Assembly (NCBI GenBank): GCA_028690035.1
Contig: JAQVCA010000001.1
Coordinates: 219,940-283,939, forward strand
Direction: 5' to 3'
DNA length: 64,000 nt
DNA from: Comamonas sp.
GTDB taxonomy: Bacteria > Pseudomonadota > Gammaproteobacteria > Burkholderiales > Burkholderiaceae_C
How positions within the stretch are numbered: the stretch's first letter is position 1; the number at the start of each line of letters is the position of its first letter. The translations under genes were made by a program, and so were the position numbers. Shown here piece by piece: positions 1 through 3,479 of the stretch. The notes beneath the pieces are model-generated. The model was not told where the DNA came from. It made no database searches and saw only the letters and a list, made by a program, of their open reading frames with translations.

Positions 1-1326
1 TCCAACAGGAATGAAGACGAAGTTTGGCCCATTAGACCAAACGCCTATGCTTGATTGTTTTATAGGACTTAATGTTAAAAATTCTATTATTGCATGTATT
101 TGCTCTTCAAGATTAGATTCTTTTATGGAATTTTCTTCTCTGAGTTTTTTTATCATCGCAAGTATATCATCTACTATATGCTCCAATGATTCCCCATAGA
201 AGGTGTATCCGCGTTGGAATTTCATGTAAAACATTAAGTCACTATTAAGATATTTTTCGAGTGATTTTGCTGATGATGCTATTAATAATTGAGAGCATAG
301 TGCACAGGCCTGACAGAATTCAAGTAAGCCGAATTTAAATTTTTTCTGGAAATGTTTTGATAAATACTGATGCGCTTTGAAATAATCGTCAGCATTAATA
401 ATCCATGGTATATAATTTGGACAGAAATTGGAGTCAATATTTTTAAGGCCTAACTTGCTAGCAGTATAATGCCCAGCATTAATGAATGCGCAAAAAATTG
501 ATGCATTCGCGTCCCCAGTATTTGATGGTATAAAAGTTCCTACATTACTTGTCAATCCCTTATTGACAGAGTAATTTTCATCACGAGCATCAAATGAAAG
601 AATAAGTTCATTTTGATCCGATGTCCGTTCTTCTACTAAGTCACCTGCGGATGTCGGAATTATCTTTACGCCTTTTCCCAAGGCTCTCATCTTTGCCCCT
701 ATATACCAATATTGATAAGCCAACCCCTCAATGGCATAGGTATTAGCCAAATCATTTTCAGTAAAATCAGTTAAAACCCACTGAGGGGGAGAATTGAGAA
801 AATGCTTTTTGTAGCTCTCATATATTATGGGTTTTAGAGATTTCCTTAATGACGCATCAAACATTCCTCCGAGGATTTTTTCGAAATCAACTTTACTTGA
901 AAGCGAAAAACCGTCCTCTTGCGTCAAAGACGCATATTTTAATATCGCCTGTTCCGCATAATTTCTAACTGTAACGGTTGTACTATCATTAGTATTGCCT
1001 CCCAATTCATTTGCTAAGAATGGTGAAATTCTTCTATAAATATGCATCCAATAGAATGCTGGGCGTTTTCGTATTATTTTTTCTAATTCTTCTTCTATTT
1101 TTTCTAGTAATTTGCCTAGTGTGGCATATTGTAATTCAGCGTCTTGTTGAGATAAAACATCAAATTGTTCAGAAATTATTGTTCGTCTGAAATTTATGGT
1201 ATCTGTAACGTATCTTTTTTGAAGCATCTCATCGAAATCGCGATGGAGAATTCCAAACGTCAGTCGGTAGTATTCCGGAAGAACTATTGGAGATGGTTTA
1301 TTCTGCTTCGCTTTGCGTTTTTTCAT
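1..1326 (-). CDS. Hypothetical protein, at least 442 codons, truncated at left window edge; probable integron cassette gene
   Basis: Manual reverse-strand translation from ATG at 1326 (MKKRKAKQNKPSPIVLPEYYRLTFGILHRDFDEML...GVWSNGPNFVFIPVG) has no stop through base 1. A TAA directly precedes the ATG in frame. AT-rich against a GC-rich chromosome. Missing from the ORF track, probably because it has no stop inside the window. Confidence 0.8.
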   Translation of the reverse strand, partial: MKKRKAKQNKPSPIVLPEYYRLTFGILHRDFDEMLQKRYVTDTINFRRTIISEQFDVLSQQDAELQYATLGKLLEKIEEELEKIIRKRPAFYWMHIYRRISPFLANELGGNTNDSTTVTVRNYAEQAILKYASLTQEDGFSLSSKVDFEKILGGMFDASLRKSLKPIIYESYKKHFLNSPPQWVLTDFTENDLANTYAIEGLAYQYWYIGAKMRALGKGVKIIPTSAGDLVEERTSDQNELILSFDARDENYSVNKGLTSNVGTFIPSNTGDANASIFCAFINAGHYTASKLGLKNIDSNFCPNYIPWIINADDYFKAHQYLSKHFQKKFKFGLLEFCQACALCSQLLIASSAKSLEKYLNSDLMFYMKFQRGYTFYGESLEHIVDDILAMIKKLREENSIKESNLEEQIHAIIEFLTLSPIKQSSIGVWSNGPNFVFIPVG

Positions 1327-1441
1327 TTAAAACTTCTTGCTAAATTAACTTGGCAAAATGGTAGCAGGCCTTCCTGAACTAGCGATGATTTCGACCAGCA
1401 AAAATCACTTCTACATGTACGCCTATGGTAGTTTGTATTGT

Positions 1442-1500
1442 GGCTAACGAACTAAGGTAAGCGGCGGCTAGAAGCCGTCCGCTTGAGCGCAAGGTTAGAA
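1442..1500 (-). other. attC-like integron recombination site 1
   Basis: Minus strand TTCTAAC-CTTGCGCTC-AAGCGGACGGCTTCTAGCCGCCGCTT-ACCTTAGTTC-GTTAGCC: inverted CTAAC/GTTAG ends, inner AAGCGG/CCGCTT arms and central palindrome, as in classic attC sites. Confidence 0.8.
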
Positions 1501-1682
1501 CCCAAGCCCACGCAACAGCCACCCAAGGCCAGCAGCATAGCCGGAAAAATGAACCTGCACCAGCGCCAATACGACACCAGAAAAACCCAGCCAAAAAACC
1601 AAAGGCAAAACCTACTTTGGGAACACTGGCACAAGCAAAACCGGATTTTTAACAGGCGCGGAATAAGCACGACCGTGGGCAA
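1452..1682 (-). CDS. Small hydrophobic cassette-encoded protein (76 aa), C-terminus encoded within attC site 1
   Basis: ORF MPTVVLIPRLLKIRFCLCQCSQ...ALKRTASSRRLP fills the interval between the two attC-like sites; the start abuts site 2 and the stop lies in site 1. Confidence 0.45.
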   Translation of the reverse strand: MPTVVLIPRLLKIRFCLCQCSQSRFCLWFFGWVFLVSYWRWCRFIFPAMLLALGGCCVGLGSNLALKRTASSRRLP

Positions 1683-1683
1683 G

Positions 1684-1746
1684 TGCTAACGGGCGAGGTA
1701 AGCCGACCGCAGAATGCGGGTCGGCTTTTGACCGAAATGTTAGAAC
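1684..1746 (-). other. attC-like integron recombination site 2
   Basis: Minus strand TTCTAAC-ATTTCGGTCA-AAGCCGACCCGCATTCTGCGGTCGGCTT-ACCTCGCCC-GTTAGCA; same architecture and orientation as site 1. Confidence 0.85.
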
Positions 1747-2161
1747 CAGAAGCCAAAATGGGTAGCCATGATTTGGCGACGGGCACGAACTGCGAAAAAG
1801 CGCAGCGCCACCGAGGCGGCGCAGCGCTTGCAAAACGATAGCTGCTTGCGCTTGCTACGCAAGGGCTGGAGGCCCAAAAGACTGAAAAATGACAAAACGC
1901 CAGCAGGCGAAGCCCGGACAAACGACAAACCAAGCGCTGAACAGCGCTTGAGAAAATAAATGCCGTTTGAATAAACATGGGCGAAATAAATTGGTTTTCA
2001 GTGGTACTAACTAAAATTAGGCAGCCAAATTTTTCAAAAACCAGACCGCCTATTACGAAAAATTTTTCATCTTCCCCCTGAGAAAAAAATTAGGCACCCC
2101 TAAAAAATCCCAGACGGGGCTTCCATCATCCAAACTTTTGTTACACCCGCCTTACAAACCC

Positions 2162-3189: not shown

Positions 3190-3410
3190 GCCACCGTTCT
3201 TAGCGCTACGACCGCAGAAGCGCAACTGCTGCGCCAGTACGACAGCGCCCTGCAAGCGTTGAAAATGGTCATAGAAATGCCCGATGCCCGATGCCGATGC
3301 CGATGCCGATGCCGATGCCGATGCCGATGCCGATGCCGATGCCGATGCCGATGCCGATGCCGATGCCGATGCCGACCGCATCATCCGCTCACTCAAACAA
3401 AAAAACTGGG
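3190..3410 (+). pseudogene. Remnant resembling the C-terminus of a Fic-family protein, frameshifted and interrupted by a hexamer repeat
   Basis: TTAEAQLLRQYDSALQALKMVIEMPDA joins (DA)n-DRIIRSLKQKNW if one extra C near 3287 is removed. Resemblance to Fic C-terminal tails is from memory. Confidence 0.4.
3288..3376. repeat. Hexanucleotide tandem repeat (CCGATG), 14 perfect copies plus a partial copy
   Basis: Perfect tract 3288-3371, preceded by a 7-nt variant unit CCCGATG. Confidence 0.97.
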
Positions 3411-3479
3411 CCAGCAGCAGGGTGCCCAGCCCCTCAGTGGCGCCCACTTTGACCAGACCGGCGGGGTCGGCGGCGCTGC
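3411..3479. repeat. Direct duplicate of an internal LysR-gene segment (2731-2799)
   Basis: 69 nt aligned with 2 mismatches; direct comparison of ccagcagcagggtgcccagcccctc[g/a]gtggcgcccacttt[c/g]accagaccggcggggtcggcggcgctgc. Confidence 0.95.

Follow-up and report, generated by a model that had tools for sequence, protein, structure and literature searches.

An Intact Gene Crosses the Edge of the Window

The window analyzed here, a 64,000-nt stretch of Comamonas sp. DNA (C14:219940-283939, from a 2.9-Mb assembly of 22 contigs), begins inside a gene on its minus strand. The first-pass annotation had reported a minus-strand reading frame that runs without a stop from an ATG at position 1326 to base 1, and direct reading of the frame bears this out. 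When the host contig was followed to the left of the window, as the annotation had proposed, the frame stayed open until a TAA at window position -551 (L009:16888-16890). The portion inside the window (1..1326) therefore supplies the 5' 442 codons of a gene that spans L009:16888-18765 (C14:219388-221265) and comprises 625 codons in 1,878 nt, with no internal stop; we refer to it as the edge gene and to its product as P0001. Its crossing of the window edge explains why the supplied list of open reading frames lacked it. An in-frame TAA abuts ATG 1326 on its 5' side, so that no start lies farther upstream. When the gene was base-shuffled 300 times, the longest open frame averaged 82 aa and never exceeded 138, compared with the 625 aa of the real sequence. 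The GC content is 34.7% (28% at third positions), against ~60% in the surrounding window. The edge ORF is thus a genuine, intact gene; neither a frameshift beyond the edge nor membership in a housekeeping family, the two outcomes that had been set against the original reading, was found.

attC Sites and Cassette Boundaries

To locate attC sites, we used a covariance model trained on five examples (two in the window, one to its left, and one each on contigs C8 and C5) together with a local search. These place five co-oriented attC sites on one strand of C14 within a span of ~4 kb, two of which lay outside the training set (L009:16802-16898, 24 bits; L009:16561-16625, 43 bits). At four of the five sites the single-strand fold beats those of shuffled sequences (z -2.2 to -4.3); the exception is L009:16560-16622, whose core is altered and whose fold is no better than shuffles. 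The attC-like site noticed earlier upstream of the gene is confirmed by its model score (65.9 bits) and its stem-loop fold; it occupies window 1441..1505 on the minus strand, is the attC of the preceding cassette, and contains the GTTRRRY-like junction core GTTAGCC (1442-1448), ~117 nt 5' of the ATG. A further attC had been sought within 100 nt of the stop, and it is present just past it: the minus-strand site at L009:16802-16898 (E = 9e-4), which lies outside the window, starts ~2 nt beyond the stop codon in the same orientation as the gene, and its single-strand fold beats 200 of 200 shuffles.

With attC sites on the same strand at both flanks, the edge gene is therefore cassette cargo, as the first-pass annotation had claimed. 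It is, with near certainty, the sole cargo of its own integron cassette, whose limits we set at the cut points between G and TT of the two GTTAGC cores, GTTAGCC (window 1448/1447) and GTTAGCA (L009:16809). The cassette so defined runs from window -630 to 1447 (minus strand; 1..1447 within the window) and measures 2,078 bp, with the edge gene as its only large ORF; the earlier remark that this is long for a cassette is a fair one.

Layout of the Array and Its Integron Context

In the direction of the gene, the cluster consists of a DUF1010 cassette, a 242-bp cassette without a recognized ORF, the edge-gene cassette, a copy of the ORF-less cassette, and a 264-aa ORF with its own attC. The DUF1010 cassette (PF06231, E = 1e-22), first of the cluster, lies at window 1690..2010 (minus strand), and its attC at 1683..1750 (minus strand) scores 75.6 bits with a fold that beats all but 1 of 200 shuffles (z -3.9). 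The 242-bp cassette occupies 1448..1689 (minus strand), and its second copy, 3' of the edge-gene cassette at L009:16566-16810, is 84-91% identical and partly degenerate. The 264-aa ORF, which has a hydrophobic C-terminus and lies left of the window (L009:15464-16258, minus strand; C14:217964-218758), strongly matches the phage family phrog_8766 (E = 3e-71), whose function is not known.

No integrase was found on contig C14, nor intI with an adjacent attI, nor Pc. With its five attC sites on a contig that has no integrase, the cluster is a CALIN, an attC cluster lacking an integrase, and not a complete integron. The sole IntI of the genome is encoded on contig C8 (C8:48914-49876; 467 bits against a cut-off of 265; frame open), where a DUF1010 cassette copy (84% identical) directly follows the integrase region, and this enzyme could act in trans on the C14 cluster. 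A search of Rfam returned nothing relevant to the array; a V_AS9 match was weak, outside the array, and under its cut-off.

Several further features were noted in the same genome. The junction of the first cassette at window 2005-2030 (CTAATTTTAGTTAGTACC) resembles the integrase-side junction on C8 (CTAATTCTAGTTAGCACC; L011 around 8040), and the flanks beyond these two junctions differ; the window junction is possibly an attI remnant or a secondary insertion site. On contig C5, an SMR efflux gene (L012:1030-1359; PF00893, E = 4e-33) directly follows an attC at L012:959-1022 and is probably a cassette in another array. A solitary attC-like site (G000:C21:4291-4354, 42.5 bits) stands apart from the other arrays. 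Within the window, GATGCC hexamer repeats (3285-3375) lie beside a fragment (~3410-3478) that repeats part of the neighboring LysR gene. Left of the window, on the plus strand at L009:12223-14170, an AAA_21 ATPase gene is followed by an RloB-like gene, a pairing that is often defense-associated; the RloB-like frame looks broken by a premature stop at ~L009:13884.

A search upstream of the edge gene for sigma-70-like promoters found none, where shuffled sequences would be expected to yield 1.7. This is not strong evidence that the gene is silent, because most of the gene-less cassettes tested in Vibrio are promoter-active and raise expression of downstream cassettes (PMC11014356), and two short cassettes lie ahead of the edge gene in this array.

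Relatives of P0001

Judged by sequence comparison, P0001 represents a very rare protein family that is absent from Pfam, NCBIfam, and PADLOC. No family in Pfam or NCBIfam fits the whole protein, and none of the families in PADLOC-DB 2.0 or the NCBIfam defense set matches it over its whole length. Searches with the protein and with a two-sequence profile found no relatives in ~1,400 sampled genomes (order-, phylum-, and family-level samples), and none appeared in two genome-contig scans, three viral-contig scans, or a phage collection. The only relative, from a plasmid collection, is a 635-aa protein of Persicobacter sp. JZB09, a member of the Bacteroidota (plasmid CP012866.1:21541-23445). It is of nearly the same length as P0001 (635 aa vs. 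625) and aligns with residues 98 to 608 at 21% identity and 82% coverage (E = 2e-9). The local alignment scores 219, whereas none of 300 shuffles exceeded 66, and each half is significant by the same measure (145 vs. 60 for the N-terminal half and 97 vs. 57 for the C-terminal half). The two proteins differ at their N-termini, where the relative has a SEC-C zinc motif (PF02810, E = 6e-8); this zinc-binding cysteine motif is absent from P0001.

Other candidate relatives were set aside or are weak. A profile tally of 117 genomes traces to the SEC-C motif of the profile's second row, all matches falling in profile positions 1-70, and does not represent true relatives; the SEC-C proteins of other plasmids are short proteins (226-334 aa) of different types. 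A match to PDB 3pnz (E = 0.0065) covers 99 residues of a helical region and disappears when the profile is used, and we take it as chance. The two-sequence profile search also gave a weak 109-column match in one genome (G1296).

The first-pass annotation had singled out the motif FCQACALC, which corresponds to residues 337-344 of P0001. It turned out to be of little use as a clue, since the sole relative does not share its cysteines; the aligned stretch there (EFAVFLSFIGESLIS) contains no cysteine. We accordingly rejected FCQACALC as a metal site, and the motif is probably incidental. It falls within what is probably a long helical N-terminal part (residues ~15-430).

A Predicted Nuclease Domain at the C-Terminus

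The C-terminal 185 residues of P0001 give a single Pfam match, to NERD (PF08378; E = 0.09; profile positions 1-91 of 111), which is also the top Pfam match of the relative's C-terminus (E = 0.0012). Both scores, 13.7 bits for P0001 and 19.8 for the relative, lie under the Pfam gathering cut-off of 22.1. The PADLOC CARF-PDDEXK profile matches the C-terminal region of the relative (E = 1.5e-5), and the nuclease regions of the PADLOC Csx1 and CARF-PDDEXK profiles weakly and partially match the same segment of P0001. When a profile of the two C-termini was compared with one of 14 NERD domains from the sampled genomes, the alignment placed REVDVAIRLKNNLYLFECRA on the NERD IDH...VIETK motif, which is the correct register, with P = 0.0015 and a probability of only 16%. 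Control profiles (N-terminal, middle, and reversed) reached at most 0.2% against NERD. P0001 alone gave 0.19%, which is at the control level, and the NERD signal therefore depends on the Persicobacter relative.

The order of motifs is that common to NERD and PD-(D/E)xK domains: a helix with E477, then EVD (D508), then ECR (E521-x-R523). Single-sequence AlphaFold models are unreliable (mean pLDDT 34 and 39), and their order of helices and strands is compatible with an alpha-beta-beta-beta-alpha-beta core. The profile and motif comparisons together suggest that the C-terminus of P0001 (~residues 440-600) probably adopts a NERD-like PD-(D/E)xK fold. P0001 departs from NERD in scoring under the Pfam cut-off and in carrying an arginine in place of the usual ExK lysine (E521-C-R523). 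It also differs from both NERD and CARF-PDDEXK proteins in its long N-terminal region, which has no match to known families and in which no CARF domain was identified.

The arginine stands where the catalytic lysine usually is, and the Persicobacter relative retains the lysine (IEAKA). Both facts favor a reading in which P0001 carries a nuclease fold made catalytically dead by the change from K to R, its role being to bind nucleic acid or to act as a scaffold, or in which the gene is decaying. We consider this rather unlikely, however, given that the frame is intact across 625 codons, that E477, D508, and E521 are identical in P0001 and the relative, and that ExR also occurs (as VETRAR) in the bacterial protein L059, whose NERD match is above the cut-off, so that arginine at this position may be tolerated. 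On balance, we lean slightly toward P0001 being a catalytically active nuclease.

It is unlikely, too, that the nuclease similarity is spurious and that P0001 is an ORFan cassette protein with some other function. Such a reading would account for the failure of any Pfam match to reach its curated cut-off and for the low profile-profile probability; against it, two proteins of 21% identity agree both in their Pfam family match and in their PADLOC nuclease-region match, at the same segment and in the correct register.

Possible Function of the Edge Gene

We propose that the N-terminal part of P0001 would act as a sensor for a signal or substrate that may come from a phage, and that the C-terminal PD-(D/E)xK domain would then cut DNA (or, less likely, RNA). 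The edge gene would thus encode a stand-alone effector of a restriction-like or abortive-infection kind, which integron recombination would spread. Stand-alone PD-(D/E)xK proteins are common defense effectors. When expressed, at least 16 of 179 Vibrio cholerae integron cassettes act against phage, and several mobile-integron cassettes likewise gave phage resistance (review PMC12409362). For these two reasons an anti-phage use appears the most plausible, although we put its probability a little short of even. The earlier suggestion that the cargo is defense- or stress-related likewise draws some support from the probable nuclease domain and from the weak PADLOC CARF-PDDEXK and Csx1 matches.

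The cassette resembles known ones, both in Vibrio chromosomal arrays and in mobile integrons, in having a single gene between a pair of attC sites, co-oriented with its cluster and of AT-rich, foreign composition. It differs from them in its length, in the lack of an integrase on its contig, in encoding a protein of an undescribed family, and in an anti-phage role that is only putative. A NERD-like nuclease serving DNA processing or mobile-element maintenance rather than phage defense is the least likely of the alternatives: NERD domains occur in many nondefense contexts and the plasmid neighbors of the relative are apparently unrelated genes (ORFs named by eye only), but a gene so rare (0 of ~1,400 sampled genomes) and borne on a cassette looks like accessory cargo, useful under certain conditions, rather than part of core DNA repair.

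The best overall explanation, to which we give an even chance, is that of a cassette-borne, single-gene NERD-like PD-(D/E)xK nuclease, plausibly used in phage defense. More tentatively, and with the balance against it, the gene may belong to an undescribed single-gene anti-phage system, in which a large helical sensor is fused to a nuclease of the NERD-like PD-(D/E)xK type. Such a system, whose proteins may or may not include a SEC-C zinc motif, would be mobilized here as an unusually long cassette and would link two very distant carriers, the present proteobacterial host and the Bacteroidota plasmid.

Recent work, with tests mostly in Vibrio and in mobile integrons, has shown that integron cassettes store phage-defense genes. 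The edge gene is an intact candidate from another lineage, in a cassette whose limits are exactly defined, and the predicted catalytic residues of P0001 make the nuclease claim directly testable.
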